Of a stretch of 64,000 nucleotides of DNA, positions 20,145-36,945 are shown piece by piece. Each line of letters opens with the position of its first letter. Positions within the stretch are counted from its first letter, which is position 1. The notes under the pieces were generated by a model that made no database searches, was not told the origin of the DNA, and was given only the letters and a program-made list of their open reading frames with translations. This DNA is from Olsenella massiliensis (GTDB lineage Bacteria; Actinomycetota; Coriobacteriia; Coriobacteriales; Atopobiaceae), in assembly GCF_001457795.1 (NCBI RefSeq), contig NZ_LN898208.1, positions 62,001 through 126,000 on the forward strand. Direction: 5' to 3'. The position numbers and the translations under genes are program-made.

Positions 20145-21335
20145 CTAGGCCGGGGAGCCGGCCAGCACGAAGTCGCCCGTCGAACCAAAGGTGATGCCCT
20201 GGCTGGGCGACATGGCCTCGATGGTCCTGCCGCCGCCGATGCAGATGCCGACGTGCCCGGCGCGCCACACGATGTCGCCCGCGACGGCCTGGGAGGCAGG
20301 CTTGCCGCAGAAGGCGCGCAGGTAGGCGGAGGAGTGCGGCACGCTGTAGCCGGCCACCGCATAGCAGTAGCTGACCAGACCGGAGCAGTCGAAGGTCCTC
20401 GACCCGGGGTCGTAGGAGCCGTAGTCATAGTGTCCGCCGACCATGGAGTAGGCGGCCGAGACGACGGTGTTGCGCCAGGCGGCGTTGGAGGGCGAGGAGT
20501 TTCCGCCGCCGTTGGAGCCGCCGGGAGTGGTCGTTCCCGAGTTCGGGGAGGTTCCCCCGGTGCTGCCGGAGTGGCTGTCGGAGCCGTTGTTGGGCTGGTT
20601 GTTGGAGCCGTTGCCCGTCGTGGGCCGCTGCGTCTCCTCGGCGCTCACGTAGCTGCCCTCATTGCTCGCCGCCGCGGCCGCGGCCTCCTGGGCCGCCTTC
20701 TCAGCCTCGGCCTTGCGGGCGGCCTCCTGCTCGGCGAGGGCCTGCTGGAGCTCGCCGCTCAGGGAGTTCACGTAGGACTGGGCGCTCGCCGCCTTGCTCG
20801 CGAGCTCCGCCTGCTGGGCCTCCTGGCTCCGCAGCAGCTGCTCCTGCTCGCTCTTCTGCTGCTCGAGCTGGCTCTTCTCGTCGGCGAGCTGCTGCTGCAG
20901 GTCGCGGACCGTCTGAATGGACCTCGTCTCCGCGTCGTTCATCTTGTTGGCATAGTAGATGCTGCTCGTGAGGTCCTCGATGCTGGACGAGCTGAAGAGT
21001 ATGTCAAGGATGGACTTGCTGCCTGCCGTGTAGTCGTCCGAGACGCGGCTCTTGAGGTCCGCCTGCGCGTCGGCGAGCTGCTGGCGCTTCTGCTCGATCT
21101 GCTCCTGCGTCTCGCTGATCTTGCTGTTGGTGTCGTCCAGCTGGACCTTGGTCTCGTTGAGCGCCTCGGACGCCCGCTCGGCCTGCCCGTAGAGGCTGTC
21201 GAGCTGGGATCGGGCGTCGTTCAGCTGCGATTGCAGGTGCTGGGGCGTGTCCGCCAACGAGGGAGTGGGGGTCGCAGAGATGATTATGCCTGCCGAGACG
21301 ATCACTGCAAGTGGTGCGTACCAGTGCCTCTTCAT
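20145..21335 (-). CDS. Secreted NlpC/P60 peptidoglycan endopeptidase with coiled-coil domain
   Basis: Cell-wall hydrolase cleaving stem peptides. The 396-residue product has a signal peptide (APLAVIVSAGIIISA, cleavage near SLADT). A long coiled coil follows at residues about 35-230 (repeated Q/E/L heptads), as in PcsB/CwlO/RipA-type proteins activated at the membrane. Then come a Ser/Gly/Asn/Thr linker (about 250-290) and an NlpC/P60 domain with catalytic Cys in FDCSGLV and His in AGHVGICI. ATG at 21335 follows GCGAGGTCAC; an upstream in-frame ATG would add a non-signal sequence. FtsEX-type regulators were not seen nearby. Confidence 0.9.
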   Translation of the reverse strand: MKRHWYAPLAVIVSAGIIISATPTPSLADTPQHLQSQLNDARSQLDSLYGQAERASEALNETKVQLDDTNSKISETQEQIEQKRQQLADAQADLKSRVSDDYTAGSKSILDILFSSSSIEDLTSSIYYANKMNDAETRSIQTVRDLQQQLADEKSQLEQQKSEQEQLLRSQEAQQAELASKAASAQSYVNSLSGELQQALAEQEAARKAEAEKAAQEAAAAAASNEGSYVSAEETQRPTTGNGSNNQPNNGSDSHSGSTGGTSPNSGTTTPGGSNGGGNSSPSNAAWRNTVVSAAYSMVGGHYDYGSYDPGSRTFDCSGLVSYCYAVAGYSVPHSSAYLRAFCGKPASQAVAGDIVWRAGHVGICIGGGRTIEAMSPSQGITFGSTGDFVLAGSPA

Positions 21336-21676
21336 GTGACCTCGCTTCCATCCTCTCGCATCCATGTGCATATTCGGGCCGTATCAGGCACAGATGCTAC
21401 CACCTTACGCTGAAGACGGGCTGATACGCTCTGCCAACGAACGGGCGACGCACGGGAGCGACAAAGCGCATACGGCCCTGCATCTGGTGATTTGCGGCAA
21501 TGTGGGCAGTCTTTGAAATATTGCGCCGTTTGTGTGATTTGAGCAGGCCAACCCTCAAGCGGAACTTCATACGCGTTTTTGCGGGCCACAAAGGGCGCCG
21601 CCAAGGCAGCCGGGCGTTGCCGCGCGAGCCCTTCGCGCCGCCCGACCGACACGTGCGTGCCTCGCGGACGCGCATC
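21336..21676 (-). promoter_or_regulatory. Long leader and promoter region of the NlpC/P60 gene
   Basis: About 340 nt without a gene. An 8-bp inverted repeat CGTATCAG/CTGATACG (21380-21387 with 21421-21428) encloses 33 nt rich in short paired segments, in the leader of the hydrolase gene. Leaders of NlpC/P60 hydrolases in actinobacteria often carry a ydaO-type cyclic-di-AMP riboswitch; I see only partial resemblance (an AGCCCGTC then TCAGC stretch on the minus strand). The hisE-proximal part is AT-richer and may hold the promoter. Confidence 0.35.
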
Positions 21677-21994
21677 CTAGCGCATGCGCGCGTCAAGCTC
21701 CCCCGCAAGCTCCTCGGGCGTCACGCCATAGCGCTCCGCCGTCACCATCAGGTGGTAGAGAAGGTCGCCCATCTCGTAGCGGATGTGGTCGTGGTCGTCG
21801 TCCTTGCAGGCCATGATGACCTCGCTCGCCTCCTCCGCGAGCTTCTTGAGCAGCGCGTCCGCCTCGCCCGTGAGGAGCCTCGCCGTGTAGGAGCCCTGGG
21901 GGTCATGACCCCAGCGACCGTGAATCGTTCCCGCAAGCGACGAGAGCGTCCTGCCCAGGTCGCCCTCGACGACGCCTTCCGTGCGAACGCCCAT
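21677..21994 (-). CDS. hisE: Phosphoribosyl-ATP pyrophosphatase
   Basis: Second step of histidine synthesis, PR-ATP to PR-AMP. The 105-residue MazG-like all-alpha protein has KKLAEEASEVIMACKDDDHDHIRYEMGDLLYH, with the acidic ExxE and ExxD metal ligands. ATG at 21994 is preferred over 22000 because GAGGGGG abuts the earlier ATG. Last gene of the his operon, 11 nt after hisI. Its C-terminus is complete. Confidence 0.9.
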   Translation of the reverse strand: MGVRTEGVVEGDLGRTLSSLAGTIHGRWGHDPQGSYTARLLTGEADALLKKLAEEASEVIMACKDDDHDHIRYEMGDLLYHLMVTAERYGVTPEELAGELDARMR

Positions 21995-22005
21995 GACCAT
22001 CCCCC

Positions 22006-22368
22006 TCACTCGTGGTCTCCGGCCGTCTTGGCCGGAAAAAGAAGCTCTCGATAGAAGCACGTTCGGTGACCGGTGTGACAGGCGGGGCCGGCGGCGTCCA
22101 CCACGTACAGGAGCGTGTCGCCGTCGCAGTCGACGAGCACGCGCCTCACCGTCTGCACGTTGCCGCTCGTGGCGCCCTTGTTCCAGAGCTCCTGGCGCGA
22201 CCTGCTCCAGAACCAGCTCGTTTTAGTCTCGAGCGTGAGGTCCAACGCCTCCTGGTTGGCCCAGGCGACCATGAGCACCTCGCCCGAGCCCTCCTGCTGG
22301 ACGACGACGGGGACCAGGCCCCGCCCGTCGAAGGCGACCTGCGGGCCCGCGGGCGCGACCTCGCTCAT
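22006..22368 (-). CDS. hisI: Phosphoribosyl-AMP cyclohydrolase
   Basis: Third step of histidine synthesis. The 120-residue product has [29 protein letters not shown], the Mg-site DCDGDTLLY and the Zn cysteines in [10 protein letters not shown]. Separate from HisE, unlike the HisIE fusion of enterobacteria. ATG at 22368 follows GGAAGGAGCGAGC. Confidence 0.93.
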
Positions 22369-22420
22369 GCTCGCTCCTTCCCGGGCGTCGCGTCGACGGC
22401 GCCCGCATCCGTCTTTCCGC

Positions 22421-23191
22421 TCAGAAGTCAAGGCGCACGGGGATGCCCTGGCTCGCAAGGTACTCCTTCACCTGGCGGACCGTGAACGTCCCAAAGTGGA
22501 AGACGCTCGCGGCGAGCACGGCGTCCGCCTCGCCCTCGAGGATGCCCTCGGCAAAGTGCTCGAGCGTCCCCACGCCGCCGGAGGCGATGACCGGGATGGG
22601 CACCGCCCTAGACACCGCGCGCGTGAGGGCAAGGTCGAAGCCGTCCTTCGTGCCGTCCTTGTCCATGCTCGTGAGGAGAATCTCGCCCGCACCCCGCCGG
22701 CAGGCCTCCTCGGCCCACGTGACGGCGTCGACGCCCGTCGCCGTCCGACCGCCCGCGACGTACACCTCCCAGCGGTCCCGGTCGCGGACCGTCCGCCGCG
22801 CGTCGATGGCGCAGATGACCGCCTGGCTGCCGAACGCGGCGGCGGCCGAGGTGATGATGGAGGGGTCCCGGACGGCGGCGGAGTTGACGGAGACCTTGTC
22901 GGCGCCGGCGCAGATCATGCGCGCCATGCCGGCGACGTCCCTGAAGCCTCCCCCGACGGCATAGGGCACGTGCAGCTCGCGACTGGCCCGGCTCGCAAGG
23001 TCCACCGTCGTCGTGCGGTCGTCCGACGTCGCCGTGATGTCGAGGAAGACGACCTCGTCCGCGCCGGCCCGGTCGTAGGCGCTCGCGAGCTCGACGGGGT
23101 CGCCCGCGTCACGCAGGCCCACGAAGTTGACGCCCTTCACCACGCGACCGTCGCGCACGTCCAGGCAGGGTATGACTCTCTTCGCCAGCAT
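22421..23191 (-). CDS. hisF: Imidazole glycerol phosphate synthase, cyclase subunit
   Basis: HisF takes ammonia from HisH and closes the imidazole ring, yielding IGP and AICAR. The 256-residue TIM barrel has both catalytic aspartates, in [14 protein letters not shown] (residue about 11) and CAIDARR (about 130), plus [15 protein letters not shown] and phosphate-binding VIASGGVG. 9 nt separate it from hisA upstream. Confidence 0.95.
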
Positions 23192-23200
23192 ATGTCCTCC

Positions 23201-23938
23201 TTAGCGGCGGGCGGCCCTGAGGGCGTCCTCGAGCGAGAAGGCCCCCTCGTACAGCGCGCGCCCGCAGATGGCCCCCTCCACGACCGCGTCGCCGAGACCC
23301 GCAAGCGCCCGGATGTCGTCCAAAGTCGCGATGCCTCCCGATGCCACGACCGGAAAGCCCGCCACCCGCGCGATCCGCTCGTAGGTCGCGACGTCAACGC
23401 CCGTGCGCATGCCGTCACGCGAGACGTCCGTAAAGACCAGGTGGCCAAAGCCGAGTTCGGCAAGGCGGCCCACGAGCTCGTCGACGCCCAGCCCCGCGCC
23501 GTCGCGCCAGCCGTTGACCCGAACCGCGCCGTCTGTCGCGGCGACGTCGGCCACGAGAAGGTCGCCGTAGCGCTCGACGGCCCTGCGCGCGAGGTCAGGG
23601 TCACGCACGAGCACGGTCCCCAGCGCGATGCGGCGGGCGCCGCAACCCGCGAGGCGGTCGATCGCCCCAAGGCTCCGCACGCCGCCGCCCACGTCCACCG
23701 AGATGCCCTCCACGCCGCAGATGCCCTCGATGGCCCTGCGATTGGCGCGCAGGGCCTCGTCGTCCTCGCCGAAGGTGGCGGAGAGGTCCACCACGTGCAC
23801 CCAGGTGGCGCCGCGGGCGGCAAAGTCTCGCGCGACCGCCACGGGGTCGTCCGCATAGACGTCCATGTGCGCCCGGTCGCCCCGCCTGAGGCGCACGACC
23901 TTGCCCGCAACGAGGTCGATCGCAGGAAAGAGAAGCAT
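23201..23938 (-). CDS. hisA: ProFAR isomerase HisA (possibly bifunctional PriA)
   Basis: Amadori isomerase of histidine synthesis. The 245-residue barrel has catalytic Asp in FPAIDLVAGKVVRL and the C-terminal half VFTDVSRDGMRTG with the second Asp. Many actinobacteria use the same protein (PriA) for tryptophan synthesis as well; this cannot be decided from sequence alone, and no trpF is in view. ATG at 23938 follows AGGGGGACGC. It is 8 nt after the hisH stop. Confidence 0.92.
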   Translation of the reverse strand: MLLFPAIDLVAGKVVRLRRGDRAHMDVYADDPVAVARDFAARGATWVHVVDLSATFGEDDEALRANRRAIEGICGVEGISVDVGGGVRSLGAIDRLAGCGARRIALGTVLVRDPDLARRAVERYGDLLVADVAATDGAVRVNGWRDGAGLGVDELVGRLAELGFGHLVFTDVSRDGMRTGVDVATYERIARVAGFPVVASGGIATLDDIRALAGLGDAVVEGAICGRALYEGAFSLEDALRAARR

Positions 23939-23946
23939 GCGTCCCC

Positions 23947-24615
23947 CTAGCCGCGCACGATGCGCACGAAGTTGGAGAGGATGCGAAGCCCCGCAGCGGA
24001 GGACTTCTCGGGATGGAACTGGACCCCAAAGACGTTGTCGCGCCAGACGCAGGAGGCGAAGCTGCGCGCGTAGTGCGTCCTGGCGGCGACGAGGGTGCCG
24101 TCGACTCCCTCGTCCACGGCGAAGGAGTGCGTGAAGTAGACGTTGCCGCCCTCGGGAACGTCCACGAGCAGGGGGCAGCGCTGGCCCACGTCGGTCAGGT
24201 GAATCTGGTCCCATCCCACGTGGGGCACCTTGAGACGTCCCGAGGGCAGGCGCGTGACCGAGCCCGAGAGCACCCCGAGCCCCGGCACCCAGGTCCCGCC
24301 CCACGGACTGGGGCCGCCCTCTGACGAGCGCTCGGAACCACGGTCAAAGAGCAGGTGAAGCCCCAGGCAGATGCCCAGGAAGGGCGTCCCTTCCCCCAGG
24401 GCCGCCATGATGGCGTCGGCCTGGCCGCCCTGACGGATGAAGCCCATGGCGTCCTCGAACGCGCCCACCCCCGGAAGCACGACGCCTGCGGCCCCGGCGA
24501 TGAGCGTGGGGTCGTCCGTGACGGTGACGAGGCCGCCTGCGGCCTCCAGGCCCCTGACGACGCTCTGCAGGTTGCCGCGATGATAGTCGACGACGACGAT
24601 CCGCCCCGCCGCCAT
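23947..24615 (-). CDS. hisH: Imidazole glycerol phosphate synthase, glutaminase subunit
   Basis: Class I glutamine amidotransferase that feeds ammonia to HisF. The 222-residue product has catalytic Cys in FLGICLGLHLLF and His/Glu in VQFHPEKSS, with the oxyanion-strand VVLPGVGAFEDAM. The start overlaps the hisB stop by 1 nt (ATGA-type arrangement). Confidence 0.95.
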   Translation of the reverse strand: MAAGRIVVVDYHRGNLQSVVRGLEAAGGLVTVTDDPTLIAGAAGVVLPGVGAFEDAMGFIRQGGQADAIMAALGEGTPFLGICLGLHLLFDRGSERSSEGGPSPWGGTWVPGLGVLSGSVTRLPSGRLKVPHVGWDQIHLTDVGQRCPLLVDVPEGGNVYFTHSFAVDEGVDGTLVAARTHYARSFASCVWRDNVFGVQFHPEKSSAAGLRILSNFVRIVRG

Positions 24616-25217
24616 CAGAGGCTCCCCTTGGTCGAGGGCACGTCGCTCACGCGCGGGTCACCCTCGACCGCCGCGCGCAGCGCGCGCGCCACGGCCTTGA
24701 AGGCGCACTCGATGAGATGGTGGGAGTTCTCGCCCGCGAGGCGGCGCACATGCAGGGTGATGCCCCCGTCCCGGGCGAGGCCGCTAAAGAACTCGCGGGC
24801 GAGCTCCGTGTCAAAGCCGCCCACCTTCTGGGCGGGGATGGGAAGCTCCCAATACAGCTCGCCGCGCCCCGAGACGTCGATGGCGGCGAGCACGAGCGTC
24901 TCGTCCATGGCGACGCAGACGTCCGAGAAGCGCCGGATGCCGGCCTTGTCACCCAGCGCCTGGCGCAGCGCGCGACCCATCACGATGCCCACGTCCTCGA
25001 CCGTGTGATGGTCGTCCACCCAGCTGTCGCCCGTGGCCTTGACCTCAAGGTCGATCAGGGCATGACGGCCGAGCGCGTCGAGCATGTGGTCAAAGAATCC
25101 CACGCCCGTGCCGACGTCGCAGCGCCCCGTCCCGTCGAGGTCGAGGCTGACCGTCACGTCCGTCTCGCCCGTCGTGCGGGTGAGCGTGACCTTGCGCGAT
25201 GACTGTCTGGTGCTCAT
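24615..25217 (-). CDS. hisB: Imidazoleglycerol-phosphate dehydratase
   Basis: Dehydrates IGP to imidazole acetol phosphate. The 200-residue monofunctional IGPD has the Mn-binding repeats FFDHMLDALGRHAL, DDHHTVEDVGI, and ENSHHLIECAFKA. No phosphatase domain, so histidinol phosphatase must be elsewhere. ATG at 25217 follows GGGAGG by 7 nt; an in-frame ATG further upstream lies inside hisC. Confidence 0.95.
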   Translation of the reverse strand: MSTRQSSRKVTLTRTTGETDVTVSLDLDGTGRCDVGTGVGFFDHMLDALGRHALIDLEVKATGDSWVDDHHTVEDVGIVMGRALRQALGDKAGIRRFSDVCVAMDETLVLAAIDVSGRGELYWELPIPAQKVGGFDTELAREFFSGLARDGGITLHVRRLAGENSHHLIECAFKAVARALRAAVEGDPRVSDVPSTKGSL

Positions 25218-25230
25218 AAGTGCCTCCCGT

Positions 25231-26331
25231 TCAGGGTCGCTCGTCCAATAGGGTGCCGAGGGCCGTGATGACGGCGTCATTCTCGGCGGGCGTGCCGACG
25301 GTGATGCGCAGGCAGTCGGCGAGGGCCGGCGCGGCGGAGAAGTCGCGCACGAGGATCGAGTGCTCGTCGCGCAGGCGACCCCAGACCTCGTGCGCCCGGG
25401 GCAGCCGCACGAGCAGGAAGTTGGCCGAGCTGGGCCAGGTCCTCACGCCTTTGGACGCAAGGCCCTCCAGTCGCGTGCGCATATGCTCGCGTTGCTCGCG
25501 AATCTCCCGGATGCTGGGCTCGAACTCCTCACGCAGGCGGACGGCGACGGAGGCGGCCGCCTGCGACAGCACGTTCACCGAATAGGGTTGGCGCACCGCG
25601 GCCAGGGCGGCGACGACGGCCGGGTTGGCGAGCACGTACCCCAGGCGCACGCCGGCGAGCTGGTAGGCCTTGGAGAGCGTGCGCAGCACTGCGAGGTTCG
25701 CATGCTCCTCGAGAAGCGCCGCGCAGTCCGCGCCGTCGCCTGCGAATTCGACGTACGCCTCGTCGGCGAGGACGACGCCGGGACAGGCGTCGCAGAGGGC
25801 GGCGACGAAGTCGGGCGACACGACGTCCCCCGTGGGATTGTTGGGAGTCGTGACGATGACCAGGTTGGCGGATGGCGCAGCCTCAAGCGCGGCCGCCTCG
25901 TTGACGCGCAACGTCTCCGGGTCGCGGCCCACCCTGAGGACGGGCGTCTCGACCAGACCCGCATAGAGCCCGTAGACGCTGAAGTCGGGAGGAAAGGTGA
26001 GGAGGGGCCGGCCGGCGCCCCCAAAGGCGAGCAGCAGGTTAAAGAGGAGCTCGTCTCCCCCGTTGCCGACGACGACCTGATCGGGCCCGACGCCGTGCCA
26101 GTCGGCGACGAGGGCGCGCAGGTCGTCCGCAAGCGCCGAGGGATAGCGGTTGGTGGGCAGCTGGCGCAGGGCCCCGTCCAGGGACTCGCGCACCGCCCGA
26201 GGCAGCTCGTGGGTGTTCTCGTTGGCCGAGAGGTTGATGCGCACCTCTGAGAAGGCGGGGTCATACGGCTCGAGCGCCGCCGCGGAGGGACGCAGGAGAG
26301 GGCGCATGTCAGAAGGAATCGTCAGGGCCAT
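25231..26331 (-). CDS. hisC: Histidinol-phosphate aminotransferase
   Basis: PLP-dependent fold I aminotransferase making histidinol phosphate. The 366-residue product has INLSANENTHELP, VVGNGGDELL, TTPNNPTGD, LADEAYVEF and the PLP lysine in TLSKAYQLAGVRLGY. It is the first gene of the local his run, although hisG and hisD normally precede it. It starts 2 nt after the stop of a truncated ftsI and has no promoter of its own in view, which makes this junction suspect. Confidence 0.94.
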   Translation of the reverse strand: MALTIPSDMRPLLRPSAAALEPYDPAFSEVRINLSANENTHELPRAVRESLDGALRQLPTNRYPSALADDLRALVADWHGVGPDQVVVGNGGDELLFNLLLAFGGAGRPLLTFPPDFSVYGLYAGLVETPVLRVGRDPETLRVNEAAALEAAPSANLVIVTTPNNPTGDVVSPDFVAALCDACPGVVLADEAYVEFAGDGADCAALLEEHANLAVLRTLSKAYQLAGVRLGYVLANPAVVAALAAVRQPYSVNVLSQAAASVAVRLREEFEPSIREIREQREHMRTRLEGLASKGVRTWPSSANFLLVRLPRAHEVWGRLRDEHSILVRDFSAAPALADCLRITVGTPAENDAVITALGTLLDERP

Positions 26332-26333
26332 CG

Positions 26334-26807
26334 CTACGCCCGCCCCTCGCTGCCTAAGAGCCGCGGGACGCCGGGAGCCCTGAGAATCTGCGGCCAGGCC
26401 GTGGCGGAGGCCCCCTCGCAGGCGGCGACGGCGGCGGCGGTGACGTCCTCGATCTCGCGGGGGTTGCAGTAGACGGTGGTGCAGTCCACGCTGATGGCGA
26501 GGACGTTGCCGTTGCGATCATAGATGGTGCCGCGCCTGGCCTCGATGGCCACCTCGTTGGAGCTGAGGCTCGCGGCGGCGGCCTTCAGCGCGGGGGCGTC
26601 AACGACCTGGAGCCAGATCAGCTTGGCACAGACGATCCCGACCACGGCGGCGAGGGCGAAGGCGAGCACGGTGCGACCTGCCTCGAAGCGGGCGTCATCG
26701 ATGCGGGGGGCCTCATCGTCACCATGGAGCCGAAGAGGGGCCTCGTCAAAGGAAGCCCCCCCTCCACGCGTCCCCGAGGGACCGGAATATGTGCGTCTGC
26801 GTCTCAC
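26334..26807 (-). pseudogene. ftsI: Truncated ftsI/PBP2-type penicillin-binding protein (N-terminal fragment)
   Basis: 157 residues: a basic N-terminal tail, one membrane segment (TVLAFALAAVVGIVCAKLIWLQVV, about residues 45-68) and the start of the PBP dimerisation domain with ARRGTIYDRNGNVLAISVDCTTVYCNPREI. After about residue 125 similarity stops, and 30 unrelated residues lead to a stop 2 nt before hisC. The transpeptidase domain (SxxK, SxN, KTG), about 400 residues, is absent. It sits after ftsL as expected in a division cluster. FtsI is normally essential, so either another copy exists, or this is a rearrangement or misassembly. Confidence 0.8.
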
Positions 26808-26839: not shown

Positions 26840-27271
26840 CTAGCCCTGGGAAGGGGTCTGCGCATTTCCTGCAGAGCCCCGGACCTGCGCCGCGCTCGTC
26901 GAGGCCACCATCCCGTAGTTCTCCGTGGCGATGCTCTCGATCCGCGAGGAGGCGCGCAGCTGGGACTGGGCCATGAGAAGACCCGTGTTGAGCGCCTGCG
27001 CGTCGGCGATGGAGCTCTGCGTCTGAGCGTTTGCCTGCATGCTCGAAACCGTCATGATCGAGACGGCCACGCGCCCGCTGCCCACGACGACCACGAAGGC
27101 CATGCAGGCGAGAAAGACCTTGATGCGCGCGAGGAACGCCCGCGACACGCCGCGTCGCGCCTCGGCGTCCAGGCCGCCGCCGCGAAGCACCTCGAACGTG
27201 GCGCGCTCGTCATGTCGTGGCTGCGCCTCCAGGACGTCGAGGCGATATGCGGCCGATCCGAGGTAGGCCAT
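26840..27271 (-). CDS. FtsL-like cell division protein
   Basis: A 143-residue single-pass membrane protein: a charged cytoplasmic tail of about 50 residues, a membrane segment (KVFLACMAFVVVVGSGRVAVSI, about residues 51-73) and an extracytoplasmic helical part rich in Q/A/S (MQANAQTQSSIADAQ), ending in a low-complexity tail. Position between rsmH and ftsI is that of ftsL; the sequence itself is poorly conserved. RBS AAGGAG. The 133 nt upstream to rsmH contain GGTG-rich low-complexity DNA. Confidence 0.7.
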   Translation of the reverse strand: MAYLGSAAYRLDVLEAQPRHDERATFEVLRGGGLDAEARRGVSRAFLARIKVFLACMAFVVVVGSGRVAVSIMTVSSMQANAQTQSSIADAQALNTGLLMAQSQLRASSRIESIATENYGMVASTSAAQVRGSAGNAQTPSQG

Positions 27272-27404: not shown

Positions 27405-28370
27405 CTACGTGCTCGTGACGTCCAACTTGACCGCCACGCGCAGCAGGGCGCTGCGCGACCGTGGGTTGGCCGCGACCTCTTCGTCGCTCGCGACGAGAGG
27501 CCTCTTCGTCCTCACCTTGACTATCGGCACGTGACCGCAGGCGCACACGGGCAGGTCGGGAGGGCAGACGCAGCCCTGCGACAGCTCATGGAACACGTGC
27601 TTGACGATGCGGTCCTCCAGCGAGTGATACGAGATGACGGCGATCCTGCCGCCCGCGTTCGCCCACCTGACGGCGGCCCTGAGGCCCTGGTCCAGCGCGT
27701 CGAGCTCATGGTTGACCTCGATGCGCAGGGCCTGGAAGGTCTTGCGCGCCGGGTGCCCGCCATGGCGCCGCCCGGCCGCGGGGATCGCGGACTTCACGAT
27801 CTGGGCCAAGCGTAGCGTCGTCTCGATGGGCTGCCTCTCTCGCTCCCGCACGATGAGGCGGGCGATGCGGGGGGCGAACCTCTCGTCGCCGTACATGCGC
27901 AGAATCCGGACGAGGTCTGCTTCGTTGTAGGTGTTCGTGACCTCTGCTGCGGTAAGGGTTCCATTGTCCGGATCCATGCGCATGTCCAACGGGGCGTCCT
28001 CGTTATATGAGAAGCCCCTCTCCGGGATGTCGAGTTGCGGGGACGAGACGCCGAGGTCAAACAGGAAGCAATCAACCCCTATGACCTCAGCTCCGACGAG
28101 GAGCTGGTCAAGCGAGGCGAAGTTTCCCTTGAGGAGGCGCGTGCGCGCCTGGGGAAGCTCCGTCTCAAAGCGTGCCGACGCCGCTGTGAGGGCCATGTCA
28201 TCCTGGTCGATGCCAATGGACAGGCCATCCGGCTGCACGCGCCGCGCGAGCTCGATGGAATGTCCCGCCCCGCCCAGGGTGCAGTCACAGACGACCTCTC
28301 CCGGTCGGGGTCCCAGCTCGCGCACGACCTCGTCGATCATCACCGGTTCGTGCCGATATTCCCTTGTCAA
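27405..28370 (-). CDS. rsmH: 16S rRNA (cytosine1402-N4)-methyltransferase
   Basis: RsmH (MraW) methylates C1402 in the ribosomal P-site. The 321-residue product has the start RHEPVMIDEVV, SAM motif CTLGGAGHS, FDLGVSSPQLD, RFAPRIARLIV and the C-terminal ISYHSLEDRIVKH. Near the C-terminus two CxC-type pairs (GCVCPPDLPVCACG) match the actinobacterial/firmicute form. It follows mraZ by 11 nt. Confidence 0.95.
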   Translation of the reverse strand: MTREYRHEPVMIDEVVRELGPRPGEVVCDCTLGGAGHSIELARRVQPDGLSIGIDQDDMALTAASARFETELPQARTRLLKGNFASLDQLLVGAEVIGVDCFLFDLGVSSPQLDIPERGFSYNEDAPLDMRMDPDNGTLTAAEVTNTYNEADLVRILRMYGDERFAPRIARLIVRERERQPIETTLRLAQIVKSAIPAAGRRHGGHPARKTFQALRIEVNHELDALDQGLRAAVRWANAGGRIAVISYHSLEDRIVKHVFHELSQGCVCPPDLPVCACGHVPIVKVRTKRPLVASDEEVAANPRSRSALLRVAVKLDVTST

Positions 28371-28381
28371 GGCACTCCCCC

Positions 28382-28813
28382 CTAGTCGGTGAACATCAGG
28401 TCTTCAAGATCCTCGTCCAGCTCGTCAAGCTGCGCGTCCAAGCTCGGCGCGTCCCAGATCTCGAAGTGGTCGATGTTGCCGACGATGGCCACCTCGCGCT
28501 CGATGCCGCACTTCTCGATCGCGGCGGCGTCCACCTTGCCCAGGGCAAGCCTGCCGGCCGAGTCGACGTCGACCGTGACGGTCTTCGAGGCGAGCGCACG
28601 GCGCAGCTTGTCGTCCTTCCGGTTGCGCGGGTTGAACCCGCCGGGAAAGAAGCTGTCAATCCACGCCTGATGGCTCTCGGGGGTAAAGCCAAAGAGCGCG
28701 CCTCCCACGGGGACCAGGCAGACCTGGTCGCCGACCTGCTTGCGAAAGCTTGCGGGAAGGGTGACCCGAGACTTGGCATCCAGGTTGTGCTTGTAGGTGC
28801 CGGTCAGGTACAT
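28382..28813 (-). CDS. mraZ: Transcriptional regulator MraZ
   Basis: MraZ (AbrB-like swapped-hairpin fold) represses or activates its own division-cluster promoter by binding repeated boxes. The 143-residue product has two tandem DXXXR cores (LDAKSRVTLPASFR and VDSAGRLALGK). RBS GAAGGGGGAGAGGG precedes the ATG. A promoter with three matching boxes lies 50-100 nt upstream, supporting autoregulation. Confidence 0.95.
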   Translation of the reverse strand: MYLTGTYKHNLDAKSRVTLPASFRKQVGDQVCLVPVGGALFGFTPESHQAWIDSFFPGGFNPRNRKDDKLRRALASKTVTVDVDSAGRLALGKVDAAAIEKCGIEREVAIVGNIDHFEIWDAPSLDAQLDELDEDLEDLMFTD

Positions 28814-35246: not shown

Positions 35247-35516
35247 TCACCCCTCGGCGACGTCCGTGACGTGGCCGGGGCGTCCCTCGGCGGGACGAGC
35301 GGCCTCGCCCGCCGCGAGCTGCGCGGCCTCGCGGGACGAGAGCTCGGTCATGTCAACCAGGTCGACGGCCTTGGATCCCAGGGCGACCGCCTCCTCGAAC
35401 AGGTCGAGGGAGCGCTCGAGCGAGGCGTCCTTGTCCCGCACGGCGGCGATGATCTCGTCAAGGCGGCCCTGAATCGTCTCGATGTCATGATAGCCGGCGG
35501 CATCCGGGCGCGTCAT
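35247..35516 (-). CDS. xseB: Exodeoxyribonuclease VII small subunit
   Basis: XseB partners XseA in exonuclease VII. The 89-residue product has the conserved helical core IQGRLDEIIAAVRDKDASLERSLDLFEEAVALG. Its ATGA overlaps the last codons of the xseA remnant by 4 nt (stop at 35513), which is how I recognise that remnant. The C-terminal tail is Ala/Arg-rich. Without xseA the enzyme would be inactive. Confidence 0.9.
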   Translation of the reverse strand: MTRPDAAGYHDIETIQGRLDEIIAAVRDKDASLERSLDLFEEAVALGSKAVDLVDMTELSSREAAQLAAGEAARPAEGRPGHVTDVAEG

Positions 35517-35614
35517 GCCAGGGCCTCCCCGTCGTGCGGGGCCGCAACGGCCGTCCGGGCGCCCTCGGCCGGCGTGGCTGCTCCCGACCCCTCGCCCGCC
35601 CCGTCGCCCTCCGC
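35513..35614 (-). pseudogene. xseA: 3' remnant of xseA, cut at adapter sequence
   Basis: A frame ending in TGA inside the xseB start codon encodes only about 34 Gly/Ala/Glu-rich residues (ending HDGEALA). It is the expected place and overlap for xseA, but the rest, about 1.2-1.4 kb, is absent and the frame runs directly into a Tn5 mosaic end. Most likely an assembly loss rather than a true deletion. Confidence 0.65.
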
Positions 35615-35652
35615 CTGTCTCTTATACACATCTAGATGTGGATAAGAGGCAG
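35615..35652. other. Nextera/Tn5 mosaic-end adapter palindrome (sequencing artefact)
   Basis: 35615-35633 is exactly CTGTCTCTTATACACATCT, the 19-nt Tn5 mosaic end used in tagmentation libraries. 35634-35652 is its reverse complement with two mismatches (T to G and A to G). The mosaic end is an engineered hybrid and is not expected in a natural chromosome; the head-to-head pair marks an untrimmed adapter join. Confidence 0.93.
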
Positions 35653-36578
35653 GCCCCGCCGGGGGTGCAGGTCGTACTCGCGCACGTCGCGCCGCCCCCC
35701 GAGCGAGGCGCCGCCGGCCCCGCGGCGCCGTCGCCGTCAGACGTGCCCCCCTCGCACGTCGCCTGCTCGGTCATGGCGCGCTCCACGGCGAGGCGGGCCT
35801 GGCCGATGACGTCGTCACCCTGCTCGATGCGGTCGGCGACCCTGCCGAGGACCCCGTTCACGAAGCGCGAGGAGTCATCGGTGCCGTATGCCTTTGCCAG
35901 CTCGACCCCCTCGTCGATGGCCACGGAGACGTCAACCGCGTCGACGGCGAGCATCTCGAAGAGGGCGAGCCTGAGCAGGTTGCGGTCAAGCGAGGGCATG
36001 CGCGAGACGCCCCAGTTGGGAGAGGTCTCGTCCAGGATGTGGTCGAGCGGGACCCTGAGCGCGTCGCAGCCGCAGGCGAGCTCCCGGGCATAGTCATCGA
36101 CGATGCCCGACGCCTCGACGACCTCATAGGAACCGCCGTGCCCGTCCGCGACGAAGCAGCCGGCCGGGCCCATGTCAAAGGCGAGAGGCTCCTCCCTGCG
36201 GGAGAGGGCGCACACGTAGCCCTCGCGGGCGTCATCCCAGACCAGCAGCTTGAAGCCGTGTGCGCGCACGGCGAGCAGACCCTGGTCGCCCACGGCGCGC
36301 AGGCGCACGCGGACGAAGTCGCCGGCGGCCTCGCCGTCGGTCCGGCTTCCCGCGAACTCGCTCCACACCCAGACCTTGCCGTCGTCGGGGTCCTCGAGCG
36401 CGTTGGGCCTGCCGGGGCGGACACGGGCGATGACGTAGTCGCCGGGCACGGCGCCCGAGACCACGTACGAGCACGACAGGACGTCCCTGACGCTCCTGCG
36501 TGAGAACTCGGCCTGGTACAGCAGCTGGACGGCCTGGCTGCGGGCGAGGGTGCGCCCGCGGAAGCAAGTCTCTGACAC
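35653..36578 (-). CDS. nusB: NusB antitermination factor with large internal insertion; 3' end lost at adapter
   Basis: NusB binds boxA RNA with NusE (S10) in rRNA antitermination. The start (RTLARSQAVQLLYQAEFSRRSV) and the C-terminal core (NWGVSRMPSLDRNLLRLALFE and SSRFVNGVLGRVAD) are clearly NusB. Between them, about residues 38-150, lies a segment not found in normal NusB of about 140 residues; it is rich in Val/Gly/Asp and predicted beta-like (DYVIARVRPG, VWVWSEFAG, GFKLLVWDDAREGYV). GTG at 36578 follows AAGGAG by 7 nt. No stop is reached before the adapter at 35652, so the true C-terminus is unknown. Confidence 0.8.
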
Positions 36579-36582
36579 GTCC

Positions 36583-36945
36583 CTACTCCTTGGGAAAGAC
36601 AAGGCTGTCGATGCAGACGTCAACGGCCTTGGGCTCGACGCCCACCTGCTCGCGGATGGCCGCGGCGACGGCCTGGCGCACGTTTGAGGCGAGCGCGACG
36701 AACGGGTAGCCGTAGAAGACCGCCAGATGCACGGTCACGCGCAAATCACCGCCCTCGACGACGGATTCCACGGCCGCCTCGGGAGAGGTGCTCTTGCTGG
36801 TGAACACCGAGATGAGGCTGGAGGCGATGTCGTTTCCCCCCACGCGCACCACTCCCTCGACCCTCTCGGCGGCGAGGGTCACGATGGTGGTGAGGACGTC
36901 CCTCGACACGCCTATGCCGGCAACGAGGAGTTCGGATTCGCTCAT
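36583..36945 (-). CDS. Asp23/Gls24 family protein (second copy)
   Basis: A 120-residue minimal Asp23-domain protein (VAGIGVSRDVLTTIVTLAAERV, VTVHLAVFYGYPFVALASNVRQAVAAAI). It lacks the acidic extensions of the copy at 1.3-1.9 kb. It lies between efp and nusB, a common place for an asp23-like gene in Gram-positive genomes. ATG at 36945 follows AAAGGAACAAG; the stop overlaps the nusB RBS. Confidence 0.88.
   Translation of the reverse strand: MSESELLVAGIGVSRDVLTTIVTLAAERVEGVVRVGGNDIASSLISVFTSKSTSPEAAVESVVEGGDLRVTVHLAVFYGYPFVALASNVRQAVAAAIREQVGVEPKAVDVCIDSLVFPKE

Follow-up and report, generated by a model that had tools for sequence, protein, structure and literature searches.

Does Olsenella massiliensis lack most of the division gene ftsI, or does its genome assembly join two places that are apart in the chromosome? 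The question arises on contig C10 of an assembly of 1.82 Mb in 13 contigs (97.07% complete, 0.26% contaminated), within a window of 64,000 nucleotides (G000:C10:62001-126000), where the division and cell wall (dcw) cluster gives way inside ftsI to the histidine operon. A sequence-only reading had described mraZ, rsmH and ftsL followed by a shortened ftsI and then hisC, and this order is confirmed on the minus strand, with the start of hisC 2 bp past the stop codon of a 157-aa open reading frame (ORF). The features concerned are listed here; gene names that carry no Pfam scan, both in the window and in its relatives, are presumed from sequence and gene order.

28382-28813, minus strand: mraZ (PF02381, E 1.9e-15).
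27405-28370, minus strand: rsmH, also called mraW (PF01795, E 7.3e-108).
26840-27271, minus strand: ftsL (PF04999, E 7e-4, slightly under the curated cut-off; same position in relatives).
26334-26807, minus strand: chimeric ORF of 157 aa, FtsI N-terminus fused in frame to the HisD C-terminal tail.
26430-26807, minus strand: FtsI part of that ORF, residues 1 to ~126, with the membrane segment and the start of the dimerisation domain (identity to the ftsI of relatives, PBP_dimer).
26424-26459, minus strand: crossover zone, residues ~117-128, with GCC-rich codons, where the identity profile changes from FtsI to HisD.
26334-26429, minus strand: HisD C-terminal tail, residues ~127-157 and the stop codon (identity to the hisD ends of relatives).
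25231-26331, minus strand: hisC, the first intact his gene past the joint (Aminotran_1_2, Pfam E 1.5e-54).
24615-25280, minus strand: hisB ORF, with a provisional start codon and an overlap with hisC as listed (IGPD, Pfam E 4.2e-62).
21677-24615, minus strand: hisH, hisA, hisF, hisI and hisE, placed from the ORF list and in the order of relatives; these five names are presumed from the sequences.

The first ~126 residues of the 157-aa ORF match the ftsI N-terminus of other members of the genus, with identities of 51% (141 aa aligned) for G003, 49% (145 aa) for G004 and 57% (84 aa) for G002. The ORF has the membrane segment and the start of the penicillin-binding protein dimerisation domain that had been recognised from the letters, and its PBP_dimer match spans only positions 2-39 of 180 (Pfam, E 2.5e-6); a Pfam scan of the ORF found no transpeptidase domain (PF00905). 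The portion of FtsI that is kept is smaller than the first third originally proposed, being ~126 of 594-608 residues, or about one-fifth of the protein. The codons that follow had been taken for some 30 unrelated ones, and instead they correspond in frame to the C-terminal tail of HisD, with 66.7% identity over 27 aa to the hisD end of G002, 65% over 23 aa to that of G003 and 50% over 26 aa to that of G004. In several genomes the hisD end that the tail matches has the same position relative to hisC, with per-genome E values down to 2e-8 (G020), an agreement that exceeds chance. In G004 the ORF that immediately precedes hisC is a histidinol dehydrogenase (Histidinol_dh, Pfam E 3.7e-161), and the 157-aa ORF has the C-terminal tail of such a protein and no PF00815 catalytic domain. 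Since the tail is the HisD C-terminus in frame, the break lies inside hisD and not between hisD and hisC.

In an identity profile built on 36 of 37 tails for HisD (L083, which has no anchor motif, was omitted), residue-by-residue agreement passes from FtsI to HisD at residues ~117-128, and the crossover cannot be placed more finely because intact ftsI and hisD parents of this species are absent from the assembly. Judged by sequence comparison, the 157-aa ORF is an ftsI/hisD chimera. On either side of it the window follows its relatives: the dcw cluster keeps the mraZ-rsmH-ftsL-ftsI order known in the Coriobacteriia, with pyrG and xerD upstream as in the genus mates, but ftsI is cut at codon ~126, and murF and the later genes are on contig C12. 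Likewise, the order from hisC to hisE is that of the hisZG-hisD-hisC-hisB-hisH-hisA-hisF-hisI-hisE operon of relatives, whereas the assembly has nothing of hisZG and only ~31 codons of hisD. Beyond hisE, at 20145-21371 on the minus strand, is an NlpC/P60-type or PcsB-like coiled-coil gene, and a second, truncated coiled-coil gene at the end of contig C9 (L116:31-867, minus strand) is its paralogue with ~32% identity; both border the his operon.

The relatives place the two parents of the chimera far apart. In G002, G003 and G004, whose ftsI loci were read whole, ftsI leads into murF, mraY, murD, ftsW, murG and murC. In all four genus mates hisD immediately precedes hisC, and the his operon consists of a fused hisZ-hisG, hisD, and then hisC, hisB, hisH, hisA, hisF, hisI and hisE. 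The window hisC is 61-64% identical to the hisC that comes after hisD in G001-G004. In genomes assembled as a single contig, ftsI is ~123 kb (G003), ~450 kb (G002) and ~249 kb (G020) from hisC/hisD, and in all three ftsI shares its strand with the his operon. The upstream border of the operon is conserved as well: ybaK and the NlpC/P60 orthologue are immediately 5' of hisZG-hisD-hisC in G003 (one contig), uvrA precedes hisZG in G004, and uvrA and ybaK are upstream of hisZG in G002, together with ~3.5 kb more sequence.

Across the family, all 121 genomes match the 157-aa ORF, but among the matches listed only its own genome matches over the whole length, and none of the other 120 matches across the joint. 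The best match is in an open frame of at least 575 aa in 116 of the 121 genomes, again among the matches listed; the shorter-frame matches are in G016, G056 and G100, two of these three within 160 bases of contig position 1, and G116 has only a weak match, outside the matches listed. Viewed from the other side of the joint, the closest named relatives of the window hisC are in Collinsella, Olsenella, Thermophilibacter and other Coriobacteriia, and all 33 coriobacterial hisC loci have hisD immediately 5' of hisC (in L077 hisD is partly truncated); 31 of them also have hisZG ahead of hisD, and the remaining two are cut on that side. Neither ftsI, ftsL, rsmH nor murF was found near hisC in any of 57 hisC loci from named genomes (E 1e-8). 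At the level of sequence, the ftsI-hisD joint is not a feature of the lineage.

The fusion of hisZ to hisG seen in these loci is a single gene of ~555-574 aa in the genus mates (e.g., L046:11892-13616, minus strand), with PF13393 and PF01634 in one ORF in G004, and it gives one continuous match in 31 of the 33 coriobacterial hisC loci; hisZG was seen in L044, L045, L050-L076, L078-L081 and L083. The portion of PMC9437257 covered describes HisZ as a HisG subunit, and that portion does not mention a fusion.

For each broken gene, the sequence expected on the inner side of the break turns up at the end of another contig. Contig C12 (421,722 bp) has its right end inside murF, as a 410-aa open frame that relatives' murF matches only from residue ~73, and past it are mraY, murD, ftsW, murG and murC. 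The left end of C9 has adapter sequence and then the truncated coiled-coil gene, whose orthologue in G003 is the NlpC/P60 protein (53% identity), followed by ybaK and uvrA. The parts between are absent from the searches made: PF00815 (histidinol dehydrogenase) and PF01634 (HisG) each have no match in the whole assembly and are each present in 13 of 14 control genomes, and neither the 3' part of ftsI, hisZG, the 5' part of hisD nor the 5' part of murF is in contigs C1-C8, searched whole, or at the ends of C9-C13. The small contigs C1-C8 were considered as the missing pieces and rejected, as they contain none of them. A missing hisG and hisD ahead of hisC had been noted from the letters; both genes are indeed lacking, throughout the assembly, except that the tail of hisD is present and the break falls inside that gene. 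Similarly, of the genes proposed for a whole-assembly search, mraY, murD and ftsW were located on C12, and hisD and hisG were not found. An orphan 3' part of ftsI at a contig end, named in advance as proof of misassembly, was not found, and C12 instead ends in the next gene, murF; because C12 stops inside murF, the 3' part of ftsI itself falls in the gap. As the inner flanks of both breaks lie at contig ends, the lacking parts would be the content of two gaps.

The assembly carries unremoved adapter. The 19-base Nextera transposon end CTGTCTCTTATACACATCT has 34 matches in the O. massiliensis assembly, compared with none in the four genus mates, at up to 3 mismatches (a reversed control gave none in this assembly and 1 across all five genomes). 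These matches are in 20 places, on contigs C4, C9, C10, C11, C12 and C13, and include 11 head-to-head dimers, a form that resembles the Nextera mate-pair junction adapter. Mate-pair libraries of this type ligate distant ends. One of the dimers is in the window:

35615-35652, no strand assigned: head-to-head Nextera transposon-end dimer, its second half with 2 mismatches.

In PMC3906532, CTGTCTCTTATACACATCT is named as the Nextera transposase sequence; a literature search for the adapter peptide string gave no paper. The joint at ftsI had been likened to this site at 35.6 kb as a misassembly, and the comparison holds in that adapter is present there, but not in that two places are falsely linked, as the order nusB-xseB-tlyA across the adapter (window 35247-36623) agrees with G003 and G004, and damage is limited to the nusB end. 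With this order intact, the 35.6-kb site is an adapter in a small gap and not a misjoin of distant pieces, and the adapters therefore prove poor read cleaning and not frequent misjoins. At the ftsI-hisD joint there is no adapter, the 35.6-kb site being the sole match in the window, and a search for the best match up to 1 kb from the joint, allowing up to 7 mismatches, gave none. The adapters alone do not account for the joint.

Several biological explanations bear on the same observations. In a true rearrangement, recombination between ftsI and hisD would have relocated the remaining division cluster, and another penicillin-binding protein would carry out septal transpeptidation. The fusion is in frame with a normal end before hisC, and recombination between genes on the same strand, as ftsI and the his operon are in G002, G003 and G020, keeps their orientation, so that a deletion, too, would yield the orientation observed. 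Nor is essentiality alone the argument, since FtsI is not required everywhere: PMC10693644 reports it as dispensable for vegetative division in Clostridioides difficile, which uses a class A penicillin-binding protein, whereas PMC3989709 reports it as essential in the actinobacterium Corynebacterium glutamicum. A rearrangement is nonetheless highly improbable, as it must lose FtsI, the start of MurF, HisZG and HisD together, exactly where two other contigs stop, and it runs against the frames of at least 575 aa with an ftsI match in 116 of 121 family genomes among the matches listed; no reciprocal joint, with the 3' part of ftsI or the 5' part of hisD, was found at the contig ends. A simple ftsI-hisD deletion is contradicted because the inner flanks that it would remove are still present, namely murF, mraY, murD and the genes up to murC on C12 and uvrA, ybaK and the NlpC/P60 gene on C9, and it is rejected. 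Were the joint real, the lineage would have no FtsI transpeptidase, would keep an FtsI membrane anchor bearing a HisD tail, would divide with another penicillin-binding protein and would have lost HisZG and HisD, a reading that we regard as exceedingly improbable.

A second complete division cluster, or a second ftsI elsewhere in the genome, would make such a loss tolerable in principle, but it was put forward only in the sequence-only reading, and nothing was found in its support. A search of the genome with the FtsI N-terminus returns the window locus and one weak match (32%) in a 679-aa frame, whose equivalents in all four genus mates are 678-679 aa long, and no second FtsI N-terminus. PF00905 has 4 matches in this genome and 5 in each of the four genus mates, the missing one being FtsI. 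The murF-mraY-murD-ftsW set occurs once, at the C12 end, and only one murD match is above the family cut-off (TIGR01087), in an assembly that is 97.07% complete. With the FtsI N-terminus, PF00905, PF00953 and TIGR01087, no second division cluster was found in this genome; that reading is contradicted, and its probability is close to nil.

The ftsI-hisD joint is thus almost certainly an assembly misjoin, with the lacking parts missing from the assembly rather than from the cell, and of the readings first offered it is misassembly that the two chimera parents and the C12 and C9 ends strongly support. Contig C10 would be chimeric at ~26.43 kb, where two unlinked gap edges, one in ftsI and one in hisD, may have been joined by the assembler, a scaffolder, a gap filler or a chimeric library molecule. 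The true chromosome most likely runs from ftsI into the murF gene cut at the right end of C12, and the left end of C9 would lead into hisZG-hisD. From gene lengths in relatives, one gap would be ~1.6 kb, with the rest of ftsI and the start of murF, and the other ~3.9 kb, with the rest of the NlpC/P60 gene, hisZG and most of hisD. Two expectations for a misjoin are borne out in the data, with the parents apart in G003, G002 and G020 and the complementary flanks at other contig ends (C12 in murF, C9 in the NlpC/P60 gene).

In a variant of this explanation, the joint would have formed in the library DNA, as an amplification or ligation chimera or at the joint of a mate-pair circle, and not in software. 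The 11 transposon-end dimers and the GCC-rich crossover zone, at which template switching is plausible, are consistent with this, and the missing adapter at the ftsI-hisD joint speaks against it; we consider this origin possible but rather doubtful, and a joint of either kind is equally an artefact. A repeat-induced misjoin is unproven: a 21-mer covering part of the crossover zone has no second occurrence in the assembly, even at 1 mismatch, and such an origin is therefore not directly shown. Further observations that count against a misjoin are the in-frame fusion (for which the chance expectation is 1/3), the lack of adapter at the joint and the correct gene order at 35.6 kb. Compared with chimeric contigs in short-read assemblies, the locus is alike in having two genes cut internally and fused, the missing halves at gaps beside other contigs, an arrangement absent in relatives and unremoved adapter in the assembly; it is unlike them in having neither adapter nor a recognised repeat at the joint and in its in-frame fusion.

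Most likely, then, the apparent loss of the cell-division gene ftsI from O. massiliensis is not biological. A genome that is 97.07% complete and 0.26% contaminated would here hide a misjoin that looks like the loss of one essential gene and two histidine genes, in the same assembly that has unremoved adapter at 20 places, and any claim of gene loss or auxotrophy based on this assembly calls for a check of the contig ends.
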